NCBI RefSeq assembly: GCF_021295345.1 | Contig: NZ_JAIMJB010000008.1 | Span: 62,001 to 126,000 of the forward strand | Source: Motilimonas eburnea | GTDB lineage: Bacteria > Pseudomonadota > Gammaproteobacteria > Enterobacterales > CBDFNC01 | Direction of reading: 5' to 3' | DNA: 64,000 nt | In this document: piece by piece, positions 2,750 through 63,985 of the stretch | How the letters are laid out: every line of letters begins with the position of its first letter | Position numbering within the stretch: the first letter of the stretch is position 1 | Translations under genes and position numbers: made by a program | The notes under the pieces: generated by a model | The model's input: the letters and a program-made list of their open reading frames with translations, nothing else | What the model was told of the DNA's origin: nothing | Database searches by the model: none

Positions 2750-2761
2750 GGAGTGGACACT

Positions 2762-2992: not shown

Positions 2993-3008
2993 TCAGGGAG
3001 TAGCGGCT

Positions 3009-4453: not shown

Positions 4454-4478
4454 CGCCTTACTCAAACAAGGGCATACT
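4450..4478 (+). promoter_or_regulatory. GTAGCG-class promoter upstream of PRTRC-B
   Basis: GTAGCGCC at 4450 contains the TAG stop of the preceding gene. CATACT lies at 4473-4478 after a 17-bp gap, and the ATG is 56 bp from the first G. Confidence 0.7.
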
Positions 4479-4505
4479 GTTTCAAACAGTTAATAGGAAT
4501 GCATC

Positions 4506-6025: not shown

Positions 6026-6046
6026 TTGGGTTAATTGGAGGTCGTG

Positions 6047-7407: not shown

Positions 7408-10400
7408 ATGAATCTACAAACTACGGGGCATTTCTTAGACTTTCTACTAGAACAGCCTATGAACACGGTTGCTATCGCGGTTGAAAGCACCCTTGGTCAT
7501 CAAGATCCCATCTTGAACAATATTGAATGTATTAAGGTCATTAATGCCCTGAAAGAAAGCGGCAAACGCCCAACAAGCGATGAATTGAAATTGCTTAAAA
7601 GCTTTCAATGTTGGGGGAAGTTTGCGCAAGCATTTGAAGCTGATCATAAACACAATGATGCTTTACGCATTCATTTAACGTCTGAGCAATACGAAGCCGC
7701 CGCCACATCTTTAAACACGGCATTTTATACGCCTGACTCACTAAAAGATGCTTTATATCGTACTATTTTGCGCCTTGGCTTTGATGAAAACGGCCTGTTA
7801 CTCGACCCGAGCACAGGCACAGGGATCTTTTTAAATGTGCCTAGCCAACTTAGAAATTGTAAAAAGTTCGCTATTGAACTCGACCCCAGCACAGGCCAGC
7901 TCGCCCGTTTTTGCCACCCTGAAGCTGAGGTTTATGTTAATCAGCGTTTTGAGCATGTTGATTTACCTCATTCGGGCCAATTCAGCCTGGCGGTTTCTAA
8001 TGTCCCGTTCGGCAAATTACCCGCGCAAGACAACAAGCGCTACAAAGAAAAAATGTCGATTCATAATTACTTCATTCGCCGCATGATTGATGAAATCCAC
8101 TGTGGGGGGCTGGTCGCCGTGATTGTCAGTGCATGGTTTTTAGACTCAAAAAATGACATTGCTCGTCGCGCCATCGCATCACAAGCTAAACTCACCTGTG
8201 CGGTACGTTTGCCAAGTGAGGTATTTAACGAGTCAGGTGCCGATGTGGTCACCGATATACTTATTTTTCAAAAAGTAGGCGCTGAGTTTGGCGATGTTAA
8301 CGCGCCTTGGGTTTCCACGGCTGACACCCAAGACAGTGCGGGTAACCCTCTCACCATTAACCAAATTTACCTTGATCATCCCGAATATATCATAGGCTCA
8401 CTATCAGCCCCTTCAAGCTTTCACGCTAGCTGCTCTGTCGTGTCTCAACCTGACTTTGCAAACGCTTTACAAGCCGCCCTTGATAATCAATCTCTCAATC
8501 CTGTTTTTCATCGTCCACGCCTCGACTACTCACAAACAGATAACGGGTTCACCTTTGATGCTGCTGAGTTGGCCTATCCTGCCCAGCCTTTTGAATTTAC
8601 CCAGCTAAACACCGGAGAGTTAGTGCAACGCCTTGAAGATAAAATTAACCAAGATGGCGCAAATGTCGCTTACTTCCGCTATGTCGATACCAATAACGCG
8701 GTTCATTGCCAGCGCATTCGAGCAAGCCTACCCATTAAGCAAGCCCTTAAAAATCTGCTGAAATTTGAAACGTCTACCAGTCACAGCAAGACAGTAATTG
8801 ACCAAGCTAGAGCTGAGTTAAATGTTTATTATCAATCCTTTGTGTCAAAGTTTGGCTGTTTTCATAGTGTGGGAGTTGAGCGCGCGCTTTCTAGCGATCC
8901 CTACTACTACCGCCTTAAAGCCCTAGAGATAAATTACGATAAAGGGATCAGCAAAGCTCAAGCGAGAAAGCTAGGTATTCCAGAAGTCAAGCCTAGCTGG
9001 GAGCCAGCCAAAATATTATCTGAACGTGTTTTTAAGCCGTATCAAGCCCCAACAACCGCCAATAACCCAGTTGAAGCGCTTTATATTTCATTGCAAGAGC
9101 TAGATTGCATCGATATTAATTACATTGCTAAACTCACGAAGCGCACGGTTGATGACTGCCTTGATGCCTTACGAGGTCTGATATTCAAAGATCCTAACGA
9201 CCCTAGCCAATGGCTGCTAGGCGCTAGCTATTTGTCAGGCAATTTACGTCAAAAAATCACCGATGCGGAAACAGCCGCGCACAACGATCCCAGTTTTAAA
9301 GATAATATCCAAGCACTTAGAGCCGCGCTGCCTGCACCATTAAGCGCCGCAGATATTACCGTTCAACTCCACTCAAGCTGGGTTCCTTGCCAGTATTTCA
9401 CTGATTTTATTTGCTCTTTGGTCGGTGAGCGAAGCCGTGTAAAAGTAGTGTATGCTGCGGGTCGCTTCTATGTCGAGGGGTACGCAAGCTCTCACGTTGC
9501 CAATACTCAAACCTACGGCACCAAGCGCAAAAGCTGTTTAGAACTGCTTAATCTCATTATGAATAACAGTGAGGTAGTCGTTAAAGACCCACATCCAACC
9601 GAGGATAAATATATTGTTAATGAGGTGGAAACCACCAACGCGCTTGATGCCGCAAACACCATTAAAGAAGAATTCAATCAGTGGATTTTTAAAGATGAAA
9701 CCCGCCGCGCCGATCTGGTGGCTATTTACAATGACACCTTTAATGTCTGGGCTAAACCTTGTTTTGATGGCGCTCACCTCACATTAAGACATTGCACCAT
9801 GACCCCTTATGAACACCAAAAGACCCTTATTTGGCGCTCATTATTTAGCAATAACTTATTGATTGATGCTTGTGTTGGGGCGGGTAAAACGCTCACCCAA
9901 ATAGCCTCCATAATGGAGCATCGACGCTTAAAAGGTTATCGCGCTATGGTCGTGATGCCAAACCATCTTGTTAGTCAATTTAGTGAAGCGGCGCTTTCTT
10001 TGTATCCTACCGCCAATGTGTTAACCCTAGATCCCTCCCTTATGTCTACCAAATATCGCGCCGAGACATTGGCAAGGATCAGTATTACCGACTTTGATAT
10101 GTGCATCATTCCATTGTCCTCGTTTACCATGTTGCCAATGCCAACCGATACCGAGCGCGAGGTATTAGAACAAGAAATTGATACCATCTTAACGGGTATT
10201 CAACTGCTTGATGATGCGAACATTTCAGTTAAACGCTTAATGAAAAAGAAGGAAACACTTGAAGCCAAGTTACAAGAACTCACTGATCGTCATATCGAAA
10301 GCACAATTACTTGGGATGACTTAAATATTGATATGCTGCTCGTAGATGAAGCGCATTATATTAAAAACGTGCCGTTTGCGTGTGGGCTAAGCGGCGTATG

Positions 10401-12423
10401 CGGGATTGGTAACCCTAATGGCAGTAAACGAGCTTATAACGCGCTGATCAAGGTACGCAATATTCAAAACAAAGGCGGTAAAGTCATTTTTTCAACCGGA
10501 ACCGTGCTCAGCAACAGTGTTAGCGAGGTGTATAATTACATCAAATACCTATGCCCGCAGGAACTTGAACGCTTAAACCTTGGCTATTTTGATGTGTTTA
10601 GCTCGTTATTTGCGATCCCTGAAAGCCAATATGAGGTCGCACCTTCGGGTAAAGGTTACAAAATCCGTACCCGCCTACGCCGCTTCTGCAATCTACCTGA
10701 GCTTTCCAACTTGTATTCTTCGTTTGCTGAGACCATTACCAAAGATGAGCTAGGTAACGCTTTGCCTCGCTTAACTGATGGTCGCCCCGCCATCCCGCCA
10801 ATGAAAAACGGCCAAAAAACCATTGTTACACTGGATGCTTGCGAGGCGCAAACCGACATTTTTAACCAAATTGTTGAAGATGCTAAAGACTTAGGCCCCG
10901 GCAAAAACAACATGCTTGAGCTAATGACAAGAGGCCGTTTAGCTGCTGTTGACCCTCGTATTATCGATCCCTTTGCTAATACCACCAGCAACCGTTTGCA
11001 TGCCGTAGTTTCTAATGTGGTTAGCAAATATCACGAGTTTAATAATGTGTTGGGAACACAGATCCTATTTTGCGACACCTCAGTACCCGCTAGAGCAAAA
11101 GCAGGAGCCAATAAAACCCTACTAAAATTGTTTGCTGATGCGGAAAATGGCAATCAAAAAGCGCAAGCTGAGTTGGATAAACTTGACCCAGCCCTTGTTG
11201 CCAGTATCGCTAAATCTTCTTTTTCATTCTATGACGAAGTAACAAGCTTGCTAGCTGAGCACATACCCGCTGAACAAATCGCTGTGATCCACGATTACAG
11301 CACCGACACCAAACGCCAAGAATTGTCACGAATGCTGAACGCGGGGAAAATTCGAGTGTTACTGGCTTCTACTGCCCTTGCGGGATCTGGCTTAAACGTA
11401 AATCAAAAACTCTGCGCCTTGCATCATTTAGATGTGCCCTATCGCCCGAGTGATTTTGAGCAACGAAGCGGGCGTATGGATCGCGTTGGTAATTTACTGT
11501 GGCAAGCCTCCCCTGATTTTTATATTGAGGAGTTCATTTACTGCACAAGAGGGACGCTTGATTCGTTCATGTACGGCCTATTGGAAACCAAAGCCACCAT
11601 GATCAAGCAATTCCAAACGGGCGACTTAAATACCCGTGAAATTTCAGAGTGTGATAATGAAATGACGTTTGCTGAAATCAAAGCGGCCGTGAGTGATAAC
11701 CCCCTCATTTTAGAGCATGTAAAAGGGGTTAGTCGGATCAAACAGCTTAAAATTTTAGAAAGACGCTACCAGCAGCGCGAGTTTGAATATCAAGACACTA
11801 TCGCTTATTTAACTAAACTAAATAAGCGCCTGACTAAGCTTATCCCCCTTGTTAACGCTGACGCTGCCAACCACTCGGCAAACAAGCATTCTGAGGGTGA
11901 CACCTTTTCGATTGAGATTGATAGCTCTCACTATGACTTCAAAGGTACTGTTTATAACCCTTTCTCTCGCTCAGCGCCGACCCCTAACGAGCAAGGCGCA
12001 GTTAACGCCCTAGCCGTGGCCGCAAAATCGTTTTCTCGTTTTGCGAAAATTGGGGATGATAAGATCATTGGCTCATACCATGGCTTTGATATTGCAATCA
12101 TCATACCTAGCTCTGCGCAGCGTTGGCGCAACCTGAGTAGCCTTGATGTGATTGTTGAACTACGCGGTAAAGCAAGCTATGAGGTGAAACCTAACAAAAT
12201 GAATTACAGATCCATTGTTAACGAGTTTGATCGTATTCTAAATAGCCTGACCTCCCTCGGCTTCACTTATGCTGCAACCATCGAAAGAAATAATTTAGAC
12301 ATTGAAAACGCCAAATCACAACTTGGCAAACCTTTTGCCCATAAAGACGAGCTGGCAACGCTCTCTCAACGAGTACACGACATTGAAATATTACTCGCAG
12401 AGCAAACCGCTCAGGCGGCATAA
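7408..12423 (+). CDS. Giant N12-class adenine methylase / SF2 helicase fusion
   Basis: This protein of 1671 residues joins an N-terminal AdoMet-dependent methylase to a C-terminal superfamily 2 helicase. The methylase has LLDPSTGTG (motif I, ~residue 131) and SNVPFG (motif IV, ~193), a variant known in the N12-class (COG4646) proteins. The helicase has a Walker A-like GAGKT (~827), DEAH in LLVDEAHYIK (~979), STGT (motif III) and QRSGRMDRVG (motif VI, ~1351). Proteins of this design are common on large plasmids and phages; phage P1 DarB, which protects incoming DNA from type I restriction, has a similar layout. An anti-restriction or DNA-remodelling role is therefore an inference. The gene has its own promoter and a good terminator at its end. 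Confidence 0.85.
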   Translation: MNLQTTGHFLDFLLEQPMNTVAIAVESTLGHQDPILNNIECIKVINALKESGKRPTSDELKLLKSFQCWGKFAQAFEADHKHNDALRIHLTSEQYEAAATSLNTAFYTPDSLKDALYRTILRLGFDENGLLLDPSTGTGIFLNVPSQLRNCKKFAIELDPSTGQLARFCHPEAEVYVNQRFEHVDLPHSGQFSLAVSNVPFGKLPAQDNKRYKEKMSIHNYFIRRMIDEIHCGGLVAVIVSAWFLDSKNDIARRAIASQAKLTCAVRLPSEVFNESGADVVTDILIFQKVGAEFGDVNAPWVSTADTQDSAGNPLTINQIYLDHPEYIIGSLSAPSSFHASCSVVSQPDFANALQAALDNQSLNPVFHRPRLDYSQTDNGFTFDAAELAYPAQPFEFTQLNTGELVQRLEDKINQDGANVAYFRYVDTNNAVHCQRIRASLPIKQALKNLLKFETSTSHSKTVIDQARAELNVYYQSFVSKFGCFHSVGVERALSSDPYYYRLKALEINYDKGISKAQARKLGIPEVKPSWEPAKILSERVFKPYQAPTTANNPVEALYISLQELDCIDINYIAKLTKRTVDDCLDALRGLIFKDPNDPSQWLLGASYLSGNLRQKITDAETAAHNDPSFKDNIQALRAALPAPLSAADITVQLHSSWVPCQYFTDFICSLVGERSRVKVVYAAGRFYVEGYASSHVANTQTYGTKRKSCLELLNLIMNNSEVVVKDPHPTEDKYIVNEVETTNALDAANTIKEEFNQWIFKDETRRADLVAIYNDTFNVWAKPCFDGAHLTLRHCTMTPYEHQKTLIWRSLFSNNLLIDACVGAGKTLTQIASIMEHRRLKGYRAMVVMPNHLVSQFSEAALSLYPTANVLTLDPSLMSTKYRAETLARISITDFDMCIIPLSSFTMLPMPTDTEREVLEQEIDTILTGIQLLDDANISVKRLMKKKETLEAKLQELTDRHIESTITWDDLNIDMLLVDEAHYIKNVPFACGLSGVCGIGNPNGSKRAYNALIKVRNIQNKGGKVIFSTGTVLSNSVSEVYNYIKYLCPQELERLNLGYFDVFSSLFAIPESQYEVAPSGKGYKIRTRLRRFCNLPELSNLYSSFAETITKDELGNALPRLTDGRPAIPPMKNGQKTIVTLDACEAQTDIFNQIVEDAKDLGPGKNNMLELMTRGRLAAVDPRIIDPFANTTSNRLHAVVSNVVSKYHEFNNVLGTQILFCDTSVPARAKAGANKTLLKLFADAENGNQKAQAELDKLDPALVASIAKSSFSFYDEVTSLLAEHIPAEQIAVIHDYSTDTKRQELSRMLNAGKIRVLLASTALAGSGLNVNQKLCALHHLDVPYRPSDFEQRSGRMDRVGNLLWQASPDFYIEEFIYCTRGTLDSFMYGLLETKATMIKQFQTGDLNTREISECDNEMTFAEIKAAVSDNPLILEHVKGVSRIKQLKILERRYQQREFEYQDTIAYLTKLNKRLTKLIPLVNADAANHSANKHSEGDTFSIEIDSSHYDFKGTVYNPFSRSAPTPNEQGAVNALAVAAKSFSRFAKIGDDKIIGSYHGFDIAIIIPSSAQRWRNLSSLDVIVELRGKASYEVKPNKMNYRSIVNEFDRILNSLTSLGFTYAATIERNNLDIENAKSQLGKPFAHKDELATLSQRVHDIEILLAEQTAQAA

Positions 12424-47846: not shown

Positions 47847-49856
47847 TTAAACCAAGTTAATGATGTACTCTTTTAGAGTATCGGTATCATCTGCATCAAT
47901 ACATGCAAGGGCTCTTGCTCGCAACTGAAAACGCTGGATAAGTGTCGACAAGTCGATCTCCAACTTTTTACCTTGGTCCAGTTCAGTTAAAAGAGAATCT
48001 AACTGTTTTGGGGTTAAAGGCAGTTTCCGATCTAATAGAAATAGATTAAGCGCTTTAAAGGCCGGCTCGATACGCTTCGTAACGGCACTAATATCATTAC
48101 CTGTCAGCTTGGCCACGTCCTCGATGGCGCCATCATACTCATTCTTCGACATGTAACGATGAAAGATGTATTTGGAATGACTCGCTTCTACGGTTAGGGT
48201 GTATTTACGTTTTCTAAGTACAAACGGCTTGGCTTCAAGCTGAAGCGCTTTTAGCATTGGCTGGTCCGGAGTTGTTTGAACGTAGTTGTCATCTTCTAAT
48301 CTGGATGCAACCAAGGGTAAATTAGAGAATTTAACCGCCGATTTTGTACCTCTACCCAACGCTTCTAGTTTTGAAAGATCTATTTCACCATCGCTCAGCA
48401 ATGTATGGCGGATTTTCTCAGGCTGTGAAAGTGCCAATATGTCTGCACTGTCCGCTTCGATTGTAACCTGAAAGATGGGTTTTTTACTGGTAAATTTGTC
48501 TCCGATCACCGTAAATTTACAACCGCCAACAGAGCCTGTGGCTTTTACAGAAACTAATTTCGATCTAACACTTTTACCAGCCCTTATTTCTATCGCAGTG
48601 TCAGCAAAAGCTTTCTTAAAGTCTTTCCACAACATTTTTACTGCTGGGCCCCGGTTTGGATCAGTGTAGTTGATTAATGACGCTAGCTTATCGAGGTCAT
48701 ACACAACCTTTGGCCTTTTGCTAAGAACTATCCGGGTTTGGACATAAAGCATAAACACGGTGAATGGCTGCTGTATTACTTCGACAGGGAATATGAATAG
48801 GGATTTTGTGGTAAACATCTGCCTTAGTACATTCGTATCCCATTTTATAAAGTAGCGATAGGGCAGGGGAGCCGCTATGTTAGCCTTCGTTTTTCTAACC
48901 CTGGCATCCGACTCTACGATCTGAAATAACCGCTTACCACGTTTGTTCTGGTGAACAAACTCGTCATCTTCCGCTGTCAGCTCGAGTGAAAACTTGTTGT
49001 TTTCAACTTGATGAAGCTTGTCATGCACATACTTACGGTTTGGCTCATTCTTACTAAGCCTTAACCATGTCATTAGGTCGTCGCGTGCAATAGGCGTGAT
49101 GTTTTTAATCGAACTTTGACCATTCTTTGAATACAGATCGCCATGGGCAAGGTGGTATGTGATGGTTAAGTTGAGTAAAGCGTAGATAAAGCGAGTATCG
49201 GATACCTCTAAACAACTTAAATCTGATTCCAGTTTAGCTCTGGCCACTAAACGTTTACCGTCTTTGTCTATGGTCTGCAATTGTCTTTCCAGTGAACGTG
49301 TATTTTCACCATCAGCACCTAAGAAGTTTGAAAAAGAGAGTTGTCCAGAAGATCCGAGAAAGGCGTCAAGGATCTTACGTTCCTCAAAAGCATGAAAGTC
49401 ATCGCTTTGCACATCAACGTTATGGCTATATCGCTTCGCTAACGCCATTTCCTGACGATATTGCTCACTTTGGTTAGATGATGTTTCTTGAATCACAACT
49501 GCCGTAACAGGTGCTTTAGAGAGCTTGTTAAACTGGTATGCAAACAAGTTACTTCGGTTAGAGTGGTGTTTGAAGCGCTCTATTTTGCTTAACACCCCTT
49601 TTTCAATGAAGGCCTGCAGTAATCGTGTGGTAGTCGGTAAGCTGAGCCCCAGCAATTTAGACATATCAGATTTTGATATGACCCTATCATCTACTTGCTT
49701 GGCATGATGAAGTAAGATCTCAAGGCGGCTTTTCTGTAAATCTGTCAACGAAGCCAGATCAAGATCGCTCATACTCTCGATGTTAAAATAGATAAGTGAC
49801 CCTAAACGCCAATTTCGATCTGTTTCTACAAAACCATTTTCATCATGAATAAGCAT
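47847..49856 (-). CDS. RctB-like replication initiator
   Basis: This 669-residue protein aligns by eye, from memory, with RctB, the Vibrio chromosome-II initiator of about 658 residues. Matching points are FIYALLNLTITYHLAHGDLY (RctB: LFALFTLTVQYHDHHQDDYH), FIKWDTNVLRQMFTTKSLFIFP followed by VEVIQQPFTVFMLYVQTR (RctB: FLFPPEILKQHTLVFQLYSYFRS), and a late RYMSKNEYDGAIEDVAKLTG. A winged-helix region lies near the N-terminus (SKSDMSKLLGLSLPTTTRLL). It stands next to GATC-bearing iterons and beside parAB, as at chromosome-II origins. Some large marine plasmids carry such proteins. Confidence 0.75.
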   Translation of the reverse strand: MLIHDENGFVETDRNWRLGSLIYFNIESMSDLDLASLTDLQKSRLEILLHHAKQVDDRVISKSDMSKLLGLSLPTTTRLLQAFIEKGVLSKIERFKHHSNRSNLFAYQFNKLSKAPVTAVVIQETSSNQSEQYRQEMALAKRYSHNVDVQSDDFHAFEERKILDAFLGSSGQLSFSNFLGADGENTRSLERQLQTIDKDGKRLVARAKLESDLSCLEVSDTRFIYALLNLTITYHLAHGDLYSKNGQSSIKNITPIARDDLMTWLRLSKNEPNRKYVHDKLHQVENNKFSLELTAEDDEFVHQNKRGKRLFQIVESDARVRKTKANIAAPLPYRYFIKWDTNVLRQMFTTKSLFIFPVEVIQQPFTVFMLYVQTRIVLSKRPKVVYDLDKLASLINYTDPNRGPAVKMLWKDFKKAFADTAIEIRAGKSVRSKLVSVKATGSVGGCKFTVIGDKFTSKKPIFQVTIEADSADILALSQPEKIRHTLLSDGEIDLSKLEALGRGTKSAVKFSNLPLVASRLEDDNYVQTTPDQPMLKALQLEAKPFVLRKRKYTLTVEASHSKYIFHRYMSKNEYDGAIEDVAKLTGNDISAVTKRIEPAFKALNLFLLDRKLPLTPKQLDSLLTELDQGKKLEIDLSTLIQRFQLRARALACIDADDTDTLKEYIINLV

Positions 49857-53684: not shown

Positions 53685-54257
53685 CTAACTGGCATGTCTG
53701 TCTGAGAGACTAGGAATGCCCACCAGCACAAATGCTGAAGGTGGCAGTATTAAGTGAGCTAAAACAAAACTGATTTGCTCATTTTCAAGCCATTTCTTAT
53801 TGATTTCGCCAGTAACTTGAAATGTCTTCCAATCAGATTGCTCAACCCAGTCTCGCAAGTTTGATGTCAAACAATCCCACACTGTGAGAGAAGGGCGGCA
53901 TCGCGGCTGAATGACTCGCTCAATTTCGACTTTAAAGCCCAAAATTAGAGGTAAATGCCGGATGATTTCTATTGCAAAGTTATCGTATGCCGTCTTAAGG
54001 TCTTTATGCTGATGTCGCTCCCATGCACTTAGTGCTGGCTCCAATATGTGCTCGGCCACGGTCTTGCCGTTGGAATCGACCAAGAAGACACTTAAGTAGG
54101 TGGCCAGACGATCAATAATGTCTGTGGCACTGGGCGAGTATAACTTTACGTTGTTTATCCGGTTTTTTGTTCTAGTTGATAACGCTGGTGTCAGCAATTT
54201 GATACCGGAGTTAGAGCCTTTAATTTTCTTCATGTAATCGTCTTTACTGTAAATCAT
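53685..54257 (-). CDS. Hypothetical transfer-operon protein
   Basis: This 190-residue protein starts 4 bp inside the traD stop (ATGA overlap) and is followed by the DUF4400-like gene 21 bp later. It has no membrane segment. Basic stretches at the N-terminus (KKIKGSNSG) and a hydrophobic C-terminus are visible. The family is unknown; position in the traI-traD operon links it to conjugation, perhaps as a partner of TraD. Confidence 0.6.
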   Translation of the reverse strand: MIYSKDDYMKKIKGSNSGIKLLTPALSTRTKNRINNVKLYSPSATDIIDRLATYLSVFLVDSNGKTVAEHILEPALSAWERHQHKDLKTAYDNFAIEIIRHLPLILGFKVEIERVIQPRCRPSLTVWDCLTSNLRDWVEQSDWKTFQVTGEINKKWLENEQISFVLAHLILPPSAFVLVGIPSLSDRHAS

Positions 54258-56146
54258 GCTGCTTCCTCTGTAATGACACCTAAGCGGCCCTTAATTTTCC
54301 GTCCATCGCTTAGGCGGGCAATAAATTGTAATTTTGGTAAGTCACCCAGCAACTCTTGTGGAAATGTTGCCTCTCTGCTTTTTTCAATCCGCTCACCATA
54401 CCCGCTAGAGTAATCTGTCACACCTGTAGCACTGCTGGATTGGCTTTGGGATGATATTGTGGTTGATTTAATATTGGTTTCTCCAAAATTTGATGAGACG
54501 GTTTCTTTTGTCGTCACGTCGTTGACGCGCATTGATATGTAGTTGTTGCATAGGCCTAAGATCCGCTCTGCTGTCGCTGGTGAAGATTTAGCAATAAGGT
54601 CAGCTACGGTTTGCGTCGCGATATACAGTAAGAAATTTGCGCCGCGAGCGGTCGCTAAAAGGTTGACCATCGGGTCATTGATAGATGAGTGTGCCTCATC
54701 GATAAATAGGCTGACGTTTCTCGCTTGGCCATGGCCATAGTTATAACGCTTGGCAGCTTCACTCACGATTGAGCCAAGGATAAGCTTGGAAATATTCCCT
54801 GCGGTAGTCATATCACCAACTGCATCAGAACTGATATAGAGCACTCCCCCTGTCTCAAGCAGGTTGCCAAAGTTAACTTTTAAATCATCATCATTGGCCG
54901 CTGGTGACAGCAAGCTTCGAAGTGGCTCTGCACATAGGTTTGAAAAGGTTGGCAATAGACCGGCCATCATTTTTGAGTAGTGAGCCTGATCGTGGACAAC
55001 TTGCTGCACGATACCTGTGACAACCTCGTGTCGGTCTACTTCACCTGCATTGACCAACCCTTCGTAATAAGCGATAAGTCTTTCTTGACGGCTTCCTTTG
55101 AGGCTATTCAATTGGCCGCCTCGCGTGACTTCCCAATTACTCCCAATGGTTTCAGCAAAGTAATTCTCAAGCACCCGCTCGCATAACTTAAACTTGCCGT
55201 TCATCAGCCCATCGTAGATTTTTACCAGTGTTAAGGTCTCACCGACATAAGTCAGCGCCATCACTACTTGGTACACCGCTTGCCAACCGAAGTTGGAAAA
55301 GGCATCTTCATGCTCTGTGCTGGCAAAGATGTTTTTTATTCGGTCGGGCACTTCTGTCAGTCTTTGATAATTTTCAACTGGATTAATTCGCACCGAGGTT
55401 TGTGGCATAGAGACATCAAACTCAAAGAATTGATCCTCTCTTCCAAGCGCTTTCATTTCGGCTTTTAGTGACTTGCGCCAGCTTTGGTCTTTTTTGGGGT
55501 CAATGACAATCACGATATGACCCATGTGTATGGCGCCAAGTGAGAGCAGCTTTTGAAGTGTGGTTTTACCTGTACCTACGTTGCCAGTGATCATGGTATG
55601 ACCATACCAGCATTCCTCATTCACCATGATACGCTTTTCTTCACCCATTCCCTGGATCCAAGTGCGCCCCCCCAATTTCCTCGCCTCTTTCTTCCAATAC
55701 CACTGGTAAGGACGAAGCAACCATGGAAGCGATATTTCTTGCTGGTCCGCACTTAAGTCCAGGATTTGATAAGCCCGTTGAGCACAGATTGAGTCCCACT
55801 CAAAACCTTCTCCAAGGTAGATTTTTCCTTTGCCTGGCTCGATACGTGAATTCAGTGTATCTATGGCTTTATTCATTTTTCTCAGTTGTGCTGGTGAGAC
55901 GATATTCATTTTGTTTTTGAACAATCTCAATTGCTTGCGCAACAGCGGCATCGCTTGTGCGTAACGTCGAATTGCATTTGCTCCAGCGCCGAACGCCAAA
56001 CCTGTGCTCACACTTAGTTCGATTCCGCCAACGGCAAGCATGATTCCTGCGGCGATCAAATTCAGATTGCCTGCATCTAATTCATAGACGGGCCGATACA
56101 GGTTTTCGATATACCCCGGGTGAAGTCTTTCGGCTTTACTGCTCAT
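54254..56146 (-). CDS. traD: TraD, type IV coupling protein
   Basis: This 630-residue protein has two N-terminal membrane segments (NLIAAGIMLAVGGIEL and the next) and the T4CP ATPase core: GNVGTGKTTLQ (Walker A, ~188), IVIVIDPKKDQSW, SLFIDEAHSSIND (Walker B, ~480) and ATQTVADLIA. It links the relaxosome to the channel and pumps the DNA strand. Length and motifs match the TraD of SXT/IncC/R27-type systems. It overlaps the traI stop by 4 bp. Confidence 0.9.
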   Translation of the reverse strand: MSSKAERLHPGYIENLYRPVYELDAGNLNLIAAGIMLAVGGIELSVSTGLAFGAGANAIRRYAQAMPLLRKQLRLFKNKMNIVSPAQLRKMNKAIDTLNSRIEPGKGKIYLGEGFEWDSICAQRAYQILDLSADQQEISLPWLLRPYQWYWKKEARKLGGRTWIQGMGEEKRIMVNEECWYGHTMITGNVGTGKTTLQKLLSLGAIHMGHIVIVIDPKKDQSWRKSLKAEMKALGREDQFFEFDVSMPQTSVRINPVENYQRLTEVPDRIKNIFASTEHEDAFSNFGWQAVYQVVMALTYVGETLTLVKIYDGLMNGKFKLCERVLENYFAETIGSNWEVTRGGQLNSLKGSRQERLIAYYEGLVNAGEVDRHEVVTGIVQQVVHDQAHYSKMMAGLLPTFSNLCAEPLRSLLSPAANDDDLKVNFGNLLETGGVLYISSDAVGDMTTAGNISKLILGSIVSEAAKRYNYGHGQARNVSLFIDEAHSSINDPMVNLLATARGANFLLYIATQTVADLIAKSSPATAERILGLCNNYISMRVNDVTTKETVSSNFGETNIKSTTISSQSQSSSATGVTDYSSGYGERIEKSREATFPQELLGDLPKLQFIARLSDGRKIKGRLGVITEEAA

Positions 56147-58557
56147 TTATCGCCCCTTACCGCCTCAAAGCGGTCAATGTACTCATTAATGATGGCAACG
56201 TAGGCTTTGCCGTTTTTACTTATCGTTTCGCCAAGTGCTGGTGCCAGTGTTTTTAGGCAATCCTTTATCTTTCCTGCATCGGCGCAGACGGAATGGATGT
56301 AACCGACTTCGAGGTACAATTGATTTTCATCGAACAACATCTTGTCTGCGTTTTTCGCCAGGTGATGTAAAAGCTCATCGATGCTGCTTCCCACCTTCTG
56401 TGAGTTATATGGCATGCTAGGAGTTGATTGCTTGTTGTCTTGCTGTGACTCTGTTTTATTCATTGCTGGAGGCTCCGAATTTTTACTTGAAATGTATTGG
56501 GCGCCAGCCTTTGTGAGTCGTATTACATTGCATTTTGCTCCGTCATGAGCTGCGATTAATTCAGGACTTTTTCTCTCTAGCTCTTGATTGTCTTGTAATG
56601 ACGCCATTACTGATGTTGGACTGCCAAGTGAAGGGATAAGTCGTAGCGCATTGATGGGTGAAAAATACAAGTGGCCGTTGCTTTCAATCAAAATTTCTGC
56701 GCTTCCATTTTGGTCTATGTAACTTTTTATGGTCGACAGCTCTTTACTCGGCTTGTATTCATCCTTAGATACAGAGGTGGATTCACTTTCTCCGTTATTT
56801 GTATGGACTTGGGGTGCTTGCTCATTTTCCACGGTATTTTGAAGGGGGGAGTTTTTGACTTCTGGAGCGGCAACCAGTTGTGAAAAGTCTGTCCCTTGTA
56901 CTGGGTTAAATGGCTGTGTTTCATCCGCATCAACTTTTTTTGTTTTGCGCTTTTTTAGTGTTTGAGTTGCTGATGCTTTTGCCTCTTTGACTGGCTTGTT
57001 TGCATTCTTTGGTTTCACCGGTGATGTTATTGTTTGAGAATTGTTGCCCTTTGACTGTGTTAGTGGTGTCCCAGGCTGAGAATTGTTTGCCTGTGATTGT
57101 GCTGGTGGTGTCGAAGCTTGAGAGTTGTTAGCCTGTGACTGTGCTGGTGATGTCGAAGCTTGAGAGTTGTTAGCCTGTGACTGTGCTGGTGATGTCGAAG
57201 CTTGAGAGTTGTTAGCCTGTGACTGTGCTGGCAACTCTGCAATGCCACTCTCTTTTATTAGTACCATGTCGAAGTTACGATTGAGCTTTAGTATTCCTGT
57301 CATACTGTTTGGCATGGGGACCCCTTCAAACACATAATCCGCCCACACCACACGAACTAGGAACTCCCAAGTAACTGAGATATTTTTGTTTCGGATTTTT
57401 TTTGCATCCTCTTCGGTGTATATGCCAGGGAGGAAGAGGGTGGTTTTTGAGTCTTTATCTGGGTTCCTGATGATGTGATTTTCATAAAGCATGTTGTAAA
57501 CTGTGTTTGTGTCGGCCGGTACAGCAACATTTTTCTTGCGAAGGTATTCAATTACTTCTTGGATTGCCTTGGGCCAAGCAAGGTAAACTTCTTTGTTTAT
57601 GATCCACACATGGCCTTTTGGTTCGTTTATAATCCACTCTGATAACTTAGCTCTGAGTCCTTTCACGATTAACATAACCGTTGATGTGTTTTTCTCTCCG
57701 AGTTGACGATCCCAAGTTTTTTGGATATCTCTCGATGTTGAACGTGAGTCTGCTGTACGAACAGCCTTGGCAATACCTGAAGGACTGTGCTCTAAGCTTG
57801 CCAATACTCGTCCAACTTCCTCATAAACATCATCAGGCCCGTTCGTTAGATAGCGTTTTGCTTCATCAGTGAGAACTTTTGGTAGCATGTGGATCGCTAA
57901 GGATTCATGACCCTTGTGTAATCTCTCTGGTTTCCATTGAACTTTATATCGTTGCACATCGTGGAGCTGACACCATTCAATGAGCGACATCATATGTGGC
58001 CCCCAAATAAGGCCACTCTTCATGCAAATTACACGACAGTCTGATATTGGCTTCCCTGCGTCATGCAATAGTGCGGTAAGCCACGTTGCATAACGCCAAC
58101 GTGGATATCGCAGCACTTCTATATCCGCGGTTGAATTTCGCTCGAAGTGTGAGTTGTTGAATGCTTTAAGCGCCTCCCATGACGTTTCTAATGAATGATA
58201 AAGCAACCCTCCATGCTCGCTGTGGTGCCAGTTCTCGCTGGCTGGAAGTAGGTGGATATATTCTATGTATTGACGAATAACGCCGAGATACAGGTTACCA
58301 AAATTAAACTCTAATGATTCACGATCATCGATTCCTGCTTCATGCTGGATTTTTTTTATCATTGGCTTAACTGCCATGATAATTTCATCGACTTTTTGTG
58401 CTGGAGTGCCATGTGTTGCTGGGGGGTACATCATGAGTTCTCGGGCAGTCAGCATTTCTCCATTATTGACCTCAATTAAGCCATAGTAACGAGCTATCCA
58501 TGGCAAAAAGCCAATTTTGTGTAAATAAGCTGCGAACTTCTCCCCCCGCGTTTTCAT
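56143..58557 (-). CDS. traI: TraI, MOBH-type relaxase
   Basis: This protein of 804 residues has the TraI_2 (MOBH) features: HHSEHGGLLYHSLETSWEA (~110-125), LTALLHDAGKP (~160-170) and LAIHMLPKV, an HD-hydrolase-like set that binds metal and nicks oriT. The C-terminal TraI_2 domain lies at about 305-400, followed by a long, repetitive Gln/Asn/Ser linker (42-bp repeats at 57070-57240) and a second structured part to the end, possibly a winged helix (INALRLIPSLGSPTSVMASL). MOBH relaxases occur in SXT, IncC, R27 and pAQU-type elements. Confidence 0.85.
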   Translation of the reverse strand: MKTRGEKFAAYLHKIGFLPWIARYYGLIEVNNGEMLTARELMMYPPATHGTPAQKVDEIIMAVKPMIKKIQHEAGIDDRESLEFNFGNLYLGVIRQYIEYIHLLPASENWHHSEHGGLLYHSLETSWEALKAFNNSHFERNSTADIEVLRYPRWRYATWLTALLHDAGKPISDCRVICMKSGLIWGPHMMSLIEWCQLHDVQRYKVQWKPERLHKGHESLAIHMLPKVLTDEAKRYLTNGPDDVYEEVGRVLASLEHSPSGIAKAVRTADSRSTSRDIQKTWDRQLGEKNTSTVMLIVKGLRAKLSEWIINEPKGHVWIINKEVYLAWPKAIQEVIEYLRKKNVAVPADTNTVYNMLYENHIIRNPDKDSKTTLFLPGIYTEEDAKKIRNKNISVTWEFLVRVVWADYVFEGVPMPNSMTGILKLNRNFDMVLIKESGIAELPAQSQANNSQASTSPAQSQANNSQASTSPAQSQANNSQASTPPAQSQANNSQPGTPLTQSKGNNSQTITSPVKPKNANKPVKEAKASATQTLKKRKTKKVDADETQPFNPVQGTDFSQLVAAPEVKNSPLQNTVENEQAPQVHTNNGESESTSVSKDEYKPSKELSTIKSYIDQNGSAEILIESNGHLYFSPINALRLIPSLGSPTSVMASLQDNQELERKSPELIAAHDGAKCNVIRLTKAGAQYISSKNSEPPAMNKTESQQDNKQSTPSMPYNSQKVGSSIDELLHHLAKNADKMLFDENQLYLEVGYIHSVCADAGKIKDCLKTLAPALGETISKNGKAYVAIINEYIDRFEAVRGDK
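57070..57240 (-). repeat. 42-bp tandem repeats in traI
   Basis: About three and a half nearly identical 42-bp copies encode repeats of PAQSQANNSQASTS. The first copies are almost identical and the last diverged. The unit keeps the frame, so copy number can change. Confidence 0.9.
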
Positions 58558-59363
58558 GCTGCTTTATCCTCGCTTTCGTTTTCTTCTTTGGTACTCCCAG
58601 CGTCTTCGAGGTTTTTCTGCTCAGCTTCTTCTACGGCGCTAGCAACCGTGTCACTTTCTTGCTTAGGTTCTTTTTCCCCGTCGACGGTTTGTGCATTTTG
58701 TAGAGCTTTGTTTAGTTGAGCGCTTGTTACTTTTTCATCAAAAGATACTCGGTCTTCACGAACTGCCTTTACAAACTCTTGTGGTGAGTAGGAGCCGCCA
58801 TTTCGCCCTGTAATATTTGTTGCAGCGGCAACTCGGCTAGAAATGCGGCTGAAAACATGCTCGATTTGAGTCCGGCAATGCTCTTTTTGTTCATCTGTCA
58901 TTACGCCTTGATACCAAAGATCTTCAGCGAAAGAAGCTTGCTTGTCAGCAATGTGGAGTAAATTGGCCAGCTGAAGGTAAATAGGATGGTTTGCTTCAAC
59001 GGTTAACCTGAATGACTCTGGTACAGTAATTTGGTACCCGCTGTCTGGAATTTGTCCAAACATGGCATTCTGAGCTTCAATTTCTTGCAAGCTGGTAGCT
59101 GCGTCGGAAATAACTTGATTAAACCACTCTTCGACTATTGGCTTAACAACCTTATCGCGAATGATCATGTGGTGTATAACCCCCAGTCTTCGAAAGGCTG
59201 CTTCTGGATTTGCCCGTATACCCAGCGTTGTACTTCGGTCGATAAATGCATATAGCATTTCGGACGTGAATGGCATTTCAATTCGCATTAGTTTGTGTCG
59301 TACAACACGTGGTTTTGTGTTGCGGCTTTGTCTTTTTTTAGAAGGCACCTGTTTATTGCTCAT
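58554..59363 (-). CDS. DUF1845/AcaB-like protein
   Basis: This 269-residue protein has a basic N-terminus and a helical domain with MLYAFIDRSTTLGIRANPEAAFRRLGVIHHMI, similar to the AcaB/DUF1845 (ICE PFL_4669) family as I recall it. The last 60 residues are acidic and disordered. Such proteins act as RHH-type activators of transfer in IncC plasmids. I chose the ATG at 59363 because AGAGGA precedes it; the longer frame to 59441 lies over the next gene. Its stop overlaps the traI start by 4 bp. Confidence 0.5.
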   Translation of the reverse strand: MSNKQVPSKKRQSRNTKPRVVRHKLMRIEMPFTSEMLYAFIDRSTTLGIRANPEAAFRRLGVIHHMIIRDKVVKPIVEEWFNQVISDAATSLQEIEAQNAMFGQIPDSGYQITVPESFRLTVEANHPIYLQLANLLHIADKQASFAEDLWYQGVMTDEQKEHCRTQIEHVFSRISSRVAAATNITGRNGGSYSPQEFVKAVREDRVSFDEKVTSAQLNKALQNAQTVDGEKEPKQESDTVASAVEEAEQKNLEDAGSTKEENESEDKAA

Positions 59364-59835
59364 TATTGTTTTCCTCTGTTTGTGGGGAGGTTTTTTGGAT
59401 GTATTTTCGTTGATAACGGTTAAATAACACCCTGCATTCATGATAAACCTTGAGCTCAGCTCTAAACCTGTTCAATGGCTCCAGGTACTCGTTTATGAGC
59501 TCAATTTCCCAGTCCTGGGCCTGACGTCGGAACTGACTTAATCGATAGCCATCCTTATAAGGCTTAACTCTTTTTGAATAGTGTTTATTTTTCTTACGAA
59601 AAAATGCTTCACCAAAATCTCGCCAGTCTATATCTTCGTGACCAGTGCTAGTCTTTCTCATTAAGGGTGCAAAGCGTCCTAATTGTTTTAGATCCCCTTT
59701 TGCCAGATGTATCGAGTTATGAGCTTTCCATGCCTCCCAATACATATCTACTTGTACTTTTGCTTGGCTTCTTACCTCGGATTCGACCGCATTAATGCTG
59801 CTCAGTAATGAACCCTCGGCGCTCGTTTTAATCAT
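59353..59835 (-). CDS. Hypothetical relaxosome-type protein, possibly MobI-like
   Basis: This 160-residue basic protein is helical, with VDMYWEAWKAHNSIHLAKGDLKQL and DIDWRDFG. Its place as the first gene of the traI operon, beside a palindrome-rich intergenic region, is that of MobI, the oriT-binding protein of SXT/IncC elements, which has similar size and Trp-rich pattern. The identity is a guess from pattern and position. It overlaps the next gene by 11 bp. Confidence 0.45.
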   Translation of the reverse strand: MIKTSAEGSLLSSINAVESEVRSQAKVQVDMYWEAWKAHNSIHLAKGDLKQLGRFAPLMRKTSTGHEDIDWRDFGEAFFRKKNKHYSKRVKPYKDGYRLSQFRRQAQDWEIELINEYLEPLNRFRAELKVYHECRVLFNRYQRKYIQKTSPQTEENNNEQ

Positions 59836-60100: not shown

Positions 60101-60458
60101 TAATAGAAAATTAATTCACTTCATTTTTGCACAGACTTACGAACTGAAAATTCATTTCAAGCCGAAATTTTGCTGATCTAATGCGAAACGCACTCTTTGC
60201 TCTTCGTTAGAATGAGTCTGCTTGGACGGCTTATAGGGCGCACTGGCGACCTAGGGGGCGTTGACACGACCTACGAGACGTCACGTTTTAGCTGGAGATG
60301 GTTTATCTAACCCTCCTTTGGGAGGCTTGGCGCCTTGTTGGGCGGAGAGCTCGCCTTATAGAGCGCCTAGGGTTAGGTAAAGAAGTTTGAGAGTGCGCAA
60401 GCAATCAAAACTAACGCTATCTGTACTTATCATTTATATAATTTCGACTGGAGGGGTT
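60101..60458. other. Leader region upstream of the ParM-like gene with GC-rich hairpins
   Basis: It has an AT-rich start and then about 170 bp (60230-60380) of higher GC with short inverted repeats such as CCTCC-GGAGG and GGCG-CGCC. A frame from 60387 reaches the ParM-like gene but has no SD. No gene is supported. Confidence 0.5.
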
Positions 60459-61556
60459 ATGACAGCATTAACTGTGAGGACTATTGATCTGGGGTTTGGT
60501 ACATCTACTGTAGTAACTCAATCGGGTAAGGAGTTTAAATATCGTACATTTCCAAGTATTGCAGCTCCGTTAGAAAAGGGAAAGTCGGATATTACGGCAG
60601 GGGCCTTTTCTCGTAGTGATGTTGTTAAAGTTGATGTTGACGGTGTTTGCTATGCAGTTGGAGAGGATGTCTACAGTTTTGTTGACGGTGCAAATGAATC
60701 TCGAGTATTTAATAGTACATTTATTAAGTCAAAACAGTACAAAGCAGTTTTCCTAGCTTCGTTATCTATGATGGCTGACCTTCCTTTGGATGAGAATGGG
60801 AGCAAGGTTATCGATCTTTTGGCAATGGGGTTGCCTGTTAACAATATGCATTTAAGGGATGAATTGAACGATTTTGCTAAAAGTACACATGTGTTACCTG
60901 ATGGATCTCAAGTTGTCATACGTGAGGCTTGGACAGTTGCGCAACCGCTTGGGGGGTTGCTGTATTATGGTGTCAACTCAAAAGAGGGGTTGTCGACTTT
61001 GCTTAATAAACGGATATTGACATGCGATCCAGGGATGGGAACTTTCGATTGGCTAACGAGCCATGGTCTAAATGTCTTTGAACGACGCTCGGGTTCCAAT
61101 GAATACGGTCTTAACAAAATCCTTTCTGCGGTATCCGATGCAGCTAAACCTGTCTTTGGTTTGGATTTATTGTACGACACAATTGATAGAGCTATTTATC
61201 AAAAGCACAAAGTGCTGAGTATAGCTGGACGTAAGTATCCTTTCCCAAGGTGTGAAGGTAAATTCCAAGATGGTACACCGGCGCTCTTTGGCAACAAGCC
61301 GATTTCATTTGATTTCAGTGCAGACATTAAGCGTGTGACTGATTCTGCTTCTGATTCTTTGCGAAACAATGTTGGTGATGGTCAGGATATCGATCTGATC
61401 CTTGTCACAGGTGGGCCCGCTGAAGTTTATCTTAAGTCAATTTCAGAGTTGTACCCACTTCATGCAGTGGAGCTAGTGCCGAACAGTATAGTTGCAAATG
61501 CGCTAGGGATTCACCAAGCAGCAGTACAAAAAGCAGATAAGTTATTTGCGGCCTAG
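60459..61556 (+). CDS. ParM/StbA-like actin-family partition protein
   Basis: This 365-residue protein has the actin-fold signatures: TVRTIDLGFGTSTVV (phosphate 1), CDPGMGTFDWL (phosphate 2, Asp and Thr in place) and LILVTGGPAEVYLKSI (adenosine motif). ParM-type filaments push plasmids apart with a DNA-binding ParR/StbB. The ATG at 60459 has GGAGG 5 bp upstream. The palindromes upstream may be the centromere. With parAB at 46 kb, the plasmid carries two partition systems. Confidence 0.8.
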   Translation: MTALTVRTIDLGFGTSTVVTQSGKEFKYRTFPSIAAPLEKGKSDITAGAFSRSDVVKVDVDGVCYAVGEDVYSFVDGANESRVFNSTFIKSKQYKAVFLASLSMMADLPLDENGSKVIDLLAMGLPVNNMHLRDELNDFAKSTHVLPDGSQVVIREAWTVAQPLGGLLYYGVNSKEGLSTLLNKRILTCDPGMGTFDWLTSHGLNVFERRSGSNEYGLNKILSAVSDAAKPVFGLDLLYDTIDRAIYQKHKVLSIAGRKYPFPRCEGKFQDGTPALFGNKPISFDFSADIKRVTDSASDSLRNNVGDGQDIDLILVTGGPAEVYLKSISELYPLHAVELVPNSIVANALGIHQAAVQKADKLFAA

Positions 61557-61682: not shown

Positions 61683-62147
61683 ATGTCAGAACAGTTGCAA
61701 ATGAAGCTCATAATCAAAAGAGAACTATATCCAGACATTCATGAGCTTCTTTCTAACTTCGCAAAGAATGTGAGGGCTTATGAGGTAAAAAAAATTCTTG
61801 AAAGTACGTTGTGTGGCCATGCTCAGGCTTTGAAAGAGCAAGGGGTTACAAAAACTCACACAGAACAGTGTCTCATTCGTACTGATTTATGCATTGCTGC
61901 GGCTGTAACCCCTACGCTATTCGAGCGTTTGTCCAAAACTAATCCTCAAGTAAGGGCTGAGTACGTTCGATTTTTGCTTAGGTTAGCTATTCTTGGTGGG
62001 GTAGAGGAAAGTACAAAAACCCCCCTTGTTGTAAGTGTTGTCGACGAACAAACTGAGTTAGATGCAGGCTGTTCAGGGCAAAGTAGCGCAAGCGTGGAAA
62101 AGCTTTGCGTTGACAAAATCGATGTTGATGCACTCGATTTCACCTGA
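61683..62147 (+). CDS. Probable ParR/StbB-like adaptor of the ParM-like system
   Basis: This 154-residue protein starts at an ATG after a strong SD (AGGAGGGGG) 126 bp downstream of the ParM-like gene. The N-terminal part reads as helical (MKLIIKRELYPDIHELLSNFAKNVRAYEVKK), the C-terminal part acidic with KLCVDKIDVDALDF. The size and position match DNA-binding adaptors of type II partition. No RHH motif is obvious, so the name is by context. Confidence 0.55.
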   Translation: MSEQLQMKLIIKRELYPDIHELLSNFAKNVRAYEVKKILESTLCGHAQALKEQGVTKTHTEQCLIRTDLCIAAAVTPTLFERLSKTNPQVRAEYVRFLLRLAILGGVEESTKTPLVVSVVDEQTELDAGCSGQSSASVEKLCVDKIDVDALDFT

Positions 62148-62622
62148 ATATTGGCATCAATCAGCAATATTGAGGCAGGTTATGTTACATCTATATACTA
62201 TTGCATTTATGTTACAAAGAGAGATGGTTTTGGCATCAATCACCGTCTTATTAGAAGAGCTTCCGGTTTGTCAGTAGCTAGGTGTTTTGCTTGTAAGTTT
62301 GAGAATTTGTAGCCCGTTATTGACTCTATTAAAAATTCAAGTAGCTCGATAGCTTGTATTATGCGGAATTCATGTGACCTACTGCAAATTTTGACACAAC
62401 AGAAGCTCCCAAATGTCTAAAATAGATTTTTCTAAGTGTGAAGAATCTCTCAATATTGCAAATTCGATTTTATTTGTTAAGTGTGGTTATAAATTCTGTT
62501 TTTTTGTCTTTGTGTGGTGTTTCAGTTTTTAAAATTCGGAGTTTGATACATTAACATCGCTTGTATCGGTTTTGGTTGTCAATTAAACACACAAAAATTG
62601 TCACAGAGAGACAAATTATTTT
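62148..62622. other. Intergenic region before the FlhDC-like operon
   Basis: No gene is supported. Near 62589-62628 an imperfect inverted repeat pairs ACACAAAAATTGTC with GACA...TTTTTTGTGT. It is placed over the -35 of the promoter below and may be a regulator site. Confidence 0.5.
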
Positions 62623-62651
62623 TTGTGTAGATGAAAAAGTAGGCATAAAAT
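62623..62651 (+). promoter_or_regulatory. Sigma70-like promoter of the FlhD/FlhC-like operon
   Basis: TTGTGT (62623-62628), 17 bp, TAAAAT (62646-62651), 37 bp before the first ATG. The inverted repeat overlaps the -35 element. Confidence 0.6.
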
Positions 62652-62687
62652 ACACACAGTTATTAAGTTTGGGTTTGGAGGAGTAAA

Positions 62688-63020
62688 ATGAAGACTTTCG
62701 ATGATTCAATAAATTCTTTGAAACAGTTGCAGCTGAAGTTTTTAGTTGCTATGCAAGAAATCTCACAACATGACAGCGAGTTAGCGCAAAATCTTCTTTT
62801 TGCAAATAGTTCTGATATAAAACGATTTGCAGATTTACCACGGTCTGATCTGGTTGCAGCCCTTGGTGCGATGTCTCTGCCAATTTTATTTGTGGCTCAT
62901 CCAGAAAGTCGGCCACGTAACGTAAGCCATATGCAAAAGTTTGTTGAAGATGTGTCTTGTTTTGATTCACTAAATATTGATTCAGTCTTACCCAGCCTTG
63001 GAACCGTTTCCAAGCATTAG
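62688..63020 (+). CDS. FlhD-like activator subunit, copy 1
   Basis: This 110-residue protein aligns by eye with FlhD: KQLQLKFLVAMQEISQHDSELAQNLL, then SDIKRFADLPRSDLVAALGAMSLPILF and a region like FRxDDxxxI... SRPRNVSHMQKF. FlhD-type proteins pair with FlhC to activate transcription; SXT SetD and IncC AcaD belong here. GGAGGAG lies 6 bp before the ATG. The gene opens a three-gene operon. Confidence 0.75.
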   Translation: MKTFDDSINSLKQLQLKFLVAMQEISQHDSELAQNLLFANSSDIKRFADLPRSDLVAALGAMSLPILFVAHPESRPRNVSHMQKFVEDVSCFDSLNIDSVLPSLGTVSKH

Positions 63021-63029
63021 GAGTTTGTC

Positions 63030-63461
63030 ATGAATGCCATCGCTTTACATAACCACATAAGCTTGTTCTCAGATGATGAAGATTTGTACGGCAAAAAAGC
63101 CCATCCGGAAAACCCACGGGTTGCAGAGTTACTAGAATTTGTCCAGCGCGTTCAGCAATCATATTTTGTTCATTTGTACGAGTTAGCTAATGCAGACCCT
63201 GAAATGACTTCAGCTATTTTCAAGGTTCCTCTTAGTGAAGTAAATGATTTTGCAAAACTGGACCCCGTAGATATTCATAATTTTCTATCCGAAATTCCTG
63301 CTTCATTTTTGAGTATTCAACACCAACCATTTAGGTACCAGAGACCTAATTCCCCCCTGTCCAAGTTAGCCGATCTAATCGACAGAAATCAGCTTGTTTT
63401 GAGACGCTCTCATGACTGTGAGGAGCGTTGGTATTACTCTAGTTTAGTTTTGGCGGTGTAA
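63030..63461 (+). CDS. FlhD-like activator subunit, copy 2
   Basis: This 143-residue protein is longer by an N-terminal acidic arm (SLFSDDEDLYGKKAHPE). The rest follows the same pattern: LLEFVQRVQQSYFVHLYELANADPEMTSAIF, VNDFAKLDPVDIHNFLSEIPASFLSI and FRYQRPNSPLSKLADLI. It follows copy 1 by 9 bp and overlaps the FlhC-like gene (TAATG). Two different FlhD-like subunits beside one FlhC-like protein are unusual, as most elements of this kind have one of each. Confidence 0.7.
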   Translation: MNAIALHNHISLFSDDEDLYGKKAHPENPRVAELLEFVQRVQQSYFVHLYELANADPEMTSAIFKVPLSEVNDFAKLDPVDIHNFLSEIPASFLSIQHQPFRYQRPNSPLSKLADLIDRNQLVLRRSHDCEERWYYSSLVLAV

Positions 63462-63985
63462 TGATGGCTATTAACTCTCGAATCCAACGTTTGACGGTGT
63501 ATGAAGACTTACTGCGCCTCGGTGCAAGAAATAACATCATTAAACGCTTCTTCCCATCCCCCCATATTGCAAAGCTCATTGGTGAGGTAGAGCCTGAAAC
63601 ACCTCCTGTGAGAGGTGGGGTTAGAAGGTTTTTATCATCAGATGGCCTCTTGATCGCAAATTCTCTTTATAATCGGCTGGCATATTTAGAGCCTGATAAT
63701 GCAGATGCAAGAAGACAAATAAAGCCTGAAACACTTCTGGCTCTAACAAAGTTCGCTCGATTATCACTGCCTCACCATGCCGGCACCTCCGAAGATATTG
63801 ACTGTAATCGTGTTGCTGTCTTGTTTGACTTGATACGAGAAGGACGGTTTTGTAAAGCGACATGCAACGTTTGTGGTGAATCGTTCTTACGATCGGATGA
63901 TTCAGTTGTGTGTACTTGCGTAAAATGCAAGTTTATTTCAGCAGGGAAAAGTAAGTCTAAGCCCGTTAACAACCCCGAACTGTAA
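63461..63985 (+). CDS. FlhC-like activator subunit
   Basis: This 174-residue protein matches FlhC: LRLGARNNIIKRFFPSPHIAKLI near the N-terminus, VAVLFDLIREGRF, then CNVCGESFLRSDDSVVCTCVKC, the four-cysteine zinc site of FlhC (CxxC and CxxC). SetC of SXT and AcaC of IncC are relatives that switch on transfer genes. It is therefore the likely activator of the tra operons, in complex with one or both FlhD-like subunits. The start codon overlaps the upstream stop. Confidence 0.8.
   Translation: MMAINSRIQRLTVYEDLLRLGARNNIIKRFFPSPHIAKLIGEVEPETPPVRGGVRRFLSSDGLLIANSLYNRLAYLEPDNADARRQIKPETLLALTKFARLSLPHHAGTSEDIDCNRVAVLFDLIREGRFCKATCNVCGESFLRSDDSVVCTCVKCKFISAGKSKSKPVNNPEL

Follow-up and report, generated by a model that had tools for sequence, protein, structure and literature searches.

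A stretch of 64,000 nucleotides from Motilimonas eburnea (the window) carries, at 62688-63985, three genes in the order D1-D2-C that overlap or almost overlap one another and whose products are related in sequence to FlhD (D1 and D2) and to FlhC (C). They lie among conjugation genes, and the D subunit is also doubled in some of their relatives. A doubled D has precedents; what is new is its division between two genes. We propose that D1-D2-C is an FlhDC-type master activator of the plasmid's own tra genes, in which a D1-D2 heterodimer would replace the FlhD homodimer to give (D1-D2-C)x2, like FlhD4C2, with D1 and D2 specialised for two positions. We give this proposal an even chance of being correct.

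Operon layout and plasmid setting

The contig carrying the window (C70) has 211,353 bases and an exact overlap of 127 bases between its ends, and is therefore taken to be a circular plasmid of about 211 kb. Its genes include those for a MOBH-type relaxase, TraD, MobI, TraC, TraV, a TrbI/TraB-like protein and a TraK-like protein, as well as TraF, TraH and TraG, which are encoded downstream of the window; judged from this gene content, the plasmid is conjugative. ParA, ParB, a ParM-type protein and an RctB-like initiator are also encoded. Activators of the SetCD/AcaCD kind are described in PMC4542580 as lying near TraG, MobI and a ParM-type partition system, and the same surroundings are found here, with D1-D2-C between mobI/parM and traF-traH-traG (Table 1). 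The three genes are located 3' of parM-parR, and C is followed by a 257-aa gene of unknown kind and then by traF-traH-traG.

Table 1. Features of the window and of related loci discussed in the text
Feature	Position	Strand	Details
TraD coupling protein	54254-56146	-	Pfam TraG-D_C E 5.8e-16
TraI-type (MOBH) relaxase	56143-58557	-	Pfam TraI_2 E 6.5e-47
MobI, divergent	59353-59835	-	Pfam MobI E 1.3e-13
ParM/StbA-type actin-like protein	60387-61556	+	Pfam ALP_N E 3.3e-18; NCBIfam PRTRC_D E 3.7e-42
parR-like gene, adjoins parM	61683-62147	+	weak ParR match, E 0.13; position after parM
Presumed promoter region upstream of D1	62148-62687	+	540 nt; no operator found
D1, first FlhD-type subunit	62688-63020	+	110 aa
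D2, second FlhD-type subunit	63030-63461	+	143 aa
C, FlhC-type subunit	63461-63985	+	174 aa
AcaD of IncA plasmid pRA1	L015:4679-5287		202 aa
AqaD/AsaD-type double Ds	L033:6025-6606; L034:3001-3603		internal FlhD-FlhD tandems
Shewanella FlhDC-type pairs before traF	L064:4223-5643; L065:4385-5727; L066:4549-5891		unannotated

Two other parts of the window are mentioned for completeness. An RctB-like replication protein and a PRTRC gene set (ParB, E, B, ThiF) are found at 47847-49856 and 288-6694, beside a ParM-type protein, and a 1671-aa protein at 7408-12423 has a C-terminal helicase part resembling DISARM DrmD and other anti-phage helicases (E 2e-12), which makes it a possible defence gene.

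The three genes form a single, tightly packed unit of translation. A Shine-Dalgarno sequence, GGAGGAG (62677-62683), lies 4 nt ahead of the D1 ATG; that of D2, AGGAG (63019-63023), overlaps the D1 stop codon, which suggests that translation of D1 and D2 is coupled; and the D2 stop and the C start overlap as TAATG. The codon signal of D1 is not decisive (0.19 for its frame against 0.20 for one antisense frame). As D1 and D2 share one frame, a single read-through protein or a recently split fusion was considered, but this was discarded as D2 has its own Shine-Dalgarno sequence and start codon and is separated from D1 by one TAG and 9 nt; the arrangement is thus not the AcaD type, with two FlhD repeats in one polypeptide. 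A model of the read-through D1-D2 protein was too poor for use (pLDDT 44), although its helix pattern repeats nonetheless. A single change at the junction would give an AcaD-like fusion.

The initial sequence-only reading had proposed that an inverted repeat over the -35 box upstream of D1 reflects feedback or repression. The repeat TTGTC-N7-GACAA is present at 62598-62614, but such repeats occur at chance level: the whole 540-nt region contains 10 inverted repeats with 5-bp arms against a shuffle mean of 11.3, and positions 62561-62687 contain 5 against 3.0 in shuffles, a count reached by 68 of 300 shuffles. A consensus scan detected no plus-strand sigma-70 promoter near this repeat, the sole plus-strand promoter-like match upstream of D1 being a weak one at 62170-62199. 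The repeat was consequently dropped as an operator.

Relationship of D1, D2 and C to FlhD and FlhC

Up to an E value of 10, neither Pfam (PF05247 for FlhD, PF05280 for FlhC) nor NCBIfam assigns D1, D2 or C to FlhD or FlhC. As PMC4542580 calls these models unsuitable for finding such conjugation activators, the missing matches were not treated as defining, and profiles were built from relatives, leaving out all sequences of the window. A profile of six single Ds, run against 1271 sequences with 1000 shuffles, recovered D2 at E 5.4e-9 and D1 at 3.5e-5 (best shuffle, 0.29). The values were 1.5e-9 and 3.8e-6 with eight single Ds (best shuffle, 0.029), and 1.2e-8 and 7e-5 with ten, the last profile also recovering canonical FlhD at 6e-8 (best shuffle, 0.45). 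Four Ds from Vibrio and Photobacterium found D2 (3e-5), with D1 reaching just 0.15, and a profile of four canonical FlhDs alone separated neither D1 nor D2 from shuffles.

A structural model of D1, made from an alignment of only three sequences, had a mean pLDDT of 67 (74-90 at residues 1-60 and below 50 beyond residue 92). In Foldseek, all of its ten best PDB matches were FlhD chains (probability 0.85-0.99, E 0.14-0.74), and VIA-align gave Z scores of 8.7-9.2 for five FlhD entries versus 4.0 for the best non-FlhD entry. A Z score of about 9 is modest for a helical protein, and it is the gap to the non-FlhD entries that counts. From these sequence comparisons D2 can be firmly regarded as FlhD-type, and the same assignment is well supported for D1 by the relatives' profiles together with the fold model, with an identity between the two proteins of about 20%.

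In tblastn searches, C matched annotated FlhC-family regulators of Vibrio plasmids (E 9e-6; ten plasmid records), and a D-like frame was seen upstream of the C match in nine of the ten records, if only by weak tblastn matches (E 0.1-0.2). Four cysteines (C135, C138, C153 and C156) are invariant in all four aligned C sequences; these are the zinc-type cysteines of an FlhC-type subunit. Searches of the genome revealed no further C gene: C itself gave one match and Pfam FlhC gave none. The sequence-only reading of this region as an FlhD-FlhD-FlhC-like operon therefore holds, coordinates included. It had left room for profile searches to place only one of the two small proteins in FlhD; when such searches were run, the family-specific profiles and the D1 model backed both, though Pfam assigns neither.

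The operon shares with flagellar FlhDC the fold of D1, and a single-D profile that recovers FlhD also recovers D1 and D2. It differs in that flagellar FlhDC has one FlhD gene, in that D1 and D2 lack a Pfam match, and in its neighbours, which are conjugation and partition genes rather than flagellar ones. SetCD of the SXT/R391 ICEs is likewise an FlhDC-type transfer activator, with D placed before C and overlapping it. However, SetD is a single protein of 99 aa (L038, an SXT-like element in a genome of the same genus as that of the window) that Pfam FlhD recognises (1.9e-9), while D1 and D2 go unrecognised.

Single and doubled D subunits among relatives

The slot mobI(-) ... D-C-traF-traH-traG recurs in elements of Vibrio, Photobacterium, Pseudoalteromonas, Shewanella and Neiella, with traF directly downstream and, in most of these loci, a divergent mobI upstream. 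A single D precedes C in Vibrio cholerae and V. campbellii (L002, L003), Photobacterium toruni and P. damselae (L007, L009), Pseudoalteromonas spongiae and P. donghaensis (L008, L063) and Neiella holothuriorum (L006/L028). The D-C pairs of these four genera have the slot and gene order seen here and are the nearest sequence relatives of C and D2, but they have one D. Neiella also has an extra gene between C and traF, as here; this gene, of unknown family, encodes 257 aa in the present plasmid (L004:2110-2883) and 208 aa in Neiella (L028:10733-11359).

A six-frame search up to 1.5 kb upstream of D revealed a further D in none of 16 relatives, while recovering D1 of the window at 2e-5 to 5e-8. 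Ten of the 16 have a single D, so that a homodimer suffices in them. As two D genes, the D-D-C arrangement was seen in one genome only. In scans of genome contigs, C alone gave no locus and a four-sequence C alignment gave two; viral contigs yielded no relative. PF05247 had 39 matches in 35 of 349 genomes, none of them adjacent, which is a weak control as this model is blind to D1 and D2. Two candidates for a further doubled D were rejected: a 222-aa protein before an FlhC-like frame in the G719 (L021) locus, which no profile matched convincingly, and a 251-aa neighbour upstream of the FlhC-like protein of Klebsiella plasmid pS245-2 (L067), which was not significantly D-like (0.26). In the latter plasmid the mobI-traF slot (L067:3564-5596) holds an FlhC-like protein of 174 aa (E 2e-4). 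In pNDM-116-14 the annotation omits the D gene at L002:4531-4911, which lies upstream of the annotated FlhC-family gene, and the D gene of Vibrio sp. S9_S30 (L029, about 9527-9925) has an in-frame stop codon, reflecting either decay or a sequencing error.

Doubling by fusion was found in two types of element. AcaD contains two FlhD-like repeats: an AcaD-free profile (eight single Ds and four FlhDs) detected its halves at 1.5e-4 and 2.9e-4 (best shuffles, 0.13), a profile of three N halves (from AcaD, AqaD of pAQU2 and an AsaD-like protein of an Aeromonas caviae plasmid) found the AcaD C half at 1.2e-9, and Pfam FlhD matches two stretches of the protein. To judge from such repeats, AcaD, AqaD and AsaD are tandem FlhD-FlhD fusions; the latter two names come from PMC4542580, and the assignment of L033 and L034 to them is ours, not that paper's. 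The premise of the sequence-only reading that known activators consist of one D and one C is thus in need of revision, as these chains have two FlhD-like repeats each. In the accessible text of PMC4207636, PMC4542580, PMC4605294, PMC4344509, PMC7826253, PMC3915882 and PMC3510510 (subscription papers fell mostly outside the search), AcaD-type proteins are called FlhD-like, and neither a two-repeat AcaD nor a D-D-C operon is described; literature matches to "two FlhD" refer to two FlhDC-type regulators, not to a doubled D.

Like D1-D2-C, the systems AcaCD (IncA/C plasmids), AqaCD (pAQU group) and AsaCD (pAsa4 group) have an FlhC-type C closely preceded by an FlhD-type D, a location near mobI, parM and traFHG, and two FlhD-like repeats per C. 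They differ in carrying these repeats in one chain of about 200 aa instead of two genes, and in the position of the operon, which follows traG and is accompanied by an HTH gene and a transglycosylase gene, whereas D1-D2-C precedes traF. In addition, the AcaD-type halves are more closely related among themselves than any of them is to D1 or D2.

Eight Shewanella plasmid records match in the traF slot, and in the three plasmids examined, C is FlhC-like (E 1e-14 to 1e-16) and D has 203-212 aa. Both repeats were detected in the S. aestuarii D (whole-protein E 1.1e-5), two weak stretches in that of S. xiamenensis (E 0.03, not above the best shuffle of 0.017), and one stretch in that of S. algae (0.008; N half, 3.9e-5), and Pfam matched none of these proteins. 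By these profiles, the doubling is clear for one Shewanella D and suggestive for the two others. The slot, the FlhC-like C and the two FlhD-like repeats are as in D1-D2-C, but the repeats are fused. Several resistance plasmids are among the Shewanella records.

In a tree of 21 D units, D1 and D2 group with the traF-slot single Ds (94/94 on the dividing branch) and the AcaD-type halves are joined (81/76). Sisterhood of D1 and D2 was neither supported nor rejected (p-AU 0.24), and an origin shared with the AcaD/AqaD/AsaD doubling was borderline (p-AU 0.071). A tree of 20 C subunits requires three changes of D number and rejects a single clade of all seven doubled-D rows (p-AU 0.0004), implying that D was doubled at least twice, perhaps three times; a clade of the window with Shewanella is not rejected (p-AU 0.276). 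According to the C tree, the doubling of D1-D2 would have no common origin with that of AcaD, AqaD and AsaD. Half profiles gave no support for equating D1 with the N half and D2 with the C half of AcaD. The Shewanella N-half profile favours D2 (0.005) and the C-half profile D1 (0.076, not significant), which gives no significant pairing of halves, and the order of D1 and D2 matches that of neither the AcaD nor the Shewanella halves.

A proposed D1-D2-C complex and its alternatives

SetCD (PMC4344509) and AcaCD (PMC4207636) are proven tra activators, working from sites that coincide with the -35 box of tra promoters or lie immediately ahead of it. FlhDC is a D4C2 complex with two peripheral FlhD subunits, in which helices 1 and 4 are exposed, and two internal ones, in which these helices are buried, the two kinds adopting different structures (PMC3510510). 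The FlhD dimer thus has two unlike sites, which provides a structural rationale for two specialised Ds. In the complex that we propose, the diverged subunits D1 and D2 would pair with each other, and this heterodimer, replacing an FlhD homodimer or a fused AcaD-type pseudo-dimer, would bind one C. Two such units would then form (D1-D2-C)x2, equivalent to FlhD4C2, with D1 and D2 each specialised for one of the two unlike D positions, the internal or the peripheral one. Fusing two Ds, as in AcaD, or encoding two, as here, may let each site specialise, and the recurrence of D doubling fits selection for unlike D pairs. The complex would bind upstream of tra promoters and recruit RNA polymerase. 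Weighing against the proposal are the 10 relatives with a single D, the mismatch in order between D1-D2 and the fused halves, the long D1 branch, the negative search for a shared tra promoter site and the restriction of the arrangement to one genome.

Direct control of the tra genes by D1-D2-C is suggested by synteny and precedent. A search of 10 hand-chosen candidate tra promoter regions for a shared operator (4+4 dyads) found none, the best log10 score of -4.19 against a null median of -4.0 not being beyond that of random intergenic sets. This null result would also be expected if the operon controlled non-transfer targets, such as host genes, and its adjacency to tra were incidental. However, at least five further genera of bacteria retain this slot next to traF and mobI, and we regard incidental adjacency as very improbable.

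How the two Ds are used allows other readings. The sequence-only reading had offered alternative complexes, mixed complexes or an antagonist; mixed complexes are the option favoured here, while the other two gained no positive evidence. D1 and D2 might each form homodimers in competition for C, so that D1-C and D2-C would be separate activators differing in their promoters or in strength. The single-D relatives demonstrate that one D can serve one C, and at about 20% identity the DNA or partner contacts of D1 and D2 could differ. Yet one operon with overlapping signals would make the two Ds in roughly fixed proportion, only one C gene was found for them to share, and the recurrent two-D fusions in relatives argue for joint use, which renders such competition unlikely.

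The divergence of D1 bears on two further possibilities. Its branch in the D tree is long (2.2 versus 1.2 for D2) and it is shorter than D2, as could be expected of a modulator or antagonist, that is, a diverged copy of FlhD that interferes with D2 dimers or covers a surface and so tunes D2-C; inhibitors, among them YdiV, are also known to target FlhD (PMC3510510). On the other hand, the model of D1 extends over the core of the FlhD fold, D1 retains the part that aligns with the last helix of FlhD, and the literature searched contains no precedent for an FlhD-type antagonist, so that this role seems improbable. The long branch, the occurrence in one genome only and the indecisive codon signal could instead mark D1 as a duplicate that is redundant or in decay and plays no special part. 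This is hard to reconcile with an intact frame preceded by a strong Shine-Dalgarno sequence, and with FlhD-type similarity that is still significant although D1 has diverged deeply from D2 and all the relatives, as neutral decay would have erased such similarity; we judge it to be just as improbable as antagonism.

FlhDC-type complexes switch on the transfer of major mobile elements, and the survey presented here reveals D doubling as recurrent among the activators of conjugative elements. The slot before traF holds unrecognised FlhDC-type pairs, listed as "hypothetical proteins", in plasmids of Shewanella, Pseudoalteromonas and Photobacterium. With slightly less than even confidence, we suggest that FlhD has been doubled at least twice independently in conjugative elements (by fusion in the IncA/C and Shewanella types, and as two genes here), whereby a homodimer whose two positions are not equivalent would have become an obligate pair of unlike subunits, and that the split form would allow the internal and peripheral positions to be mutated and tagged separately. 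In FlhD4C2, four FlhD subunits from one gene are reported to occupy two environments, and the positions are genetically inseparable; if D1 and D2 hold one position each, this plasmid makes them separable. The main value of the finding lies in drawing attention to the double-D architecture of AcaD-type proteins and in the prospect that the two D positions may be separately testable.
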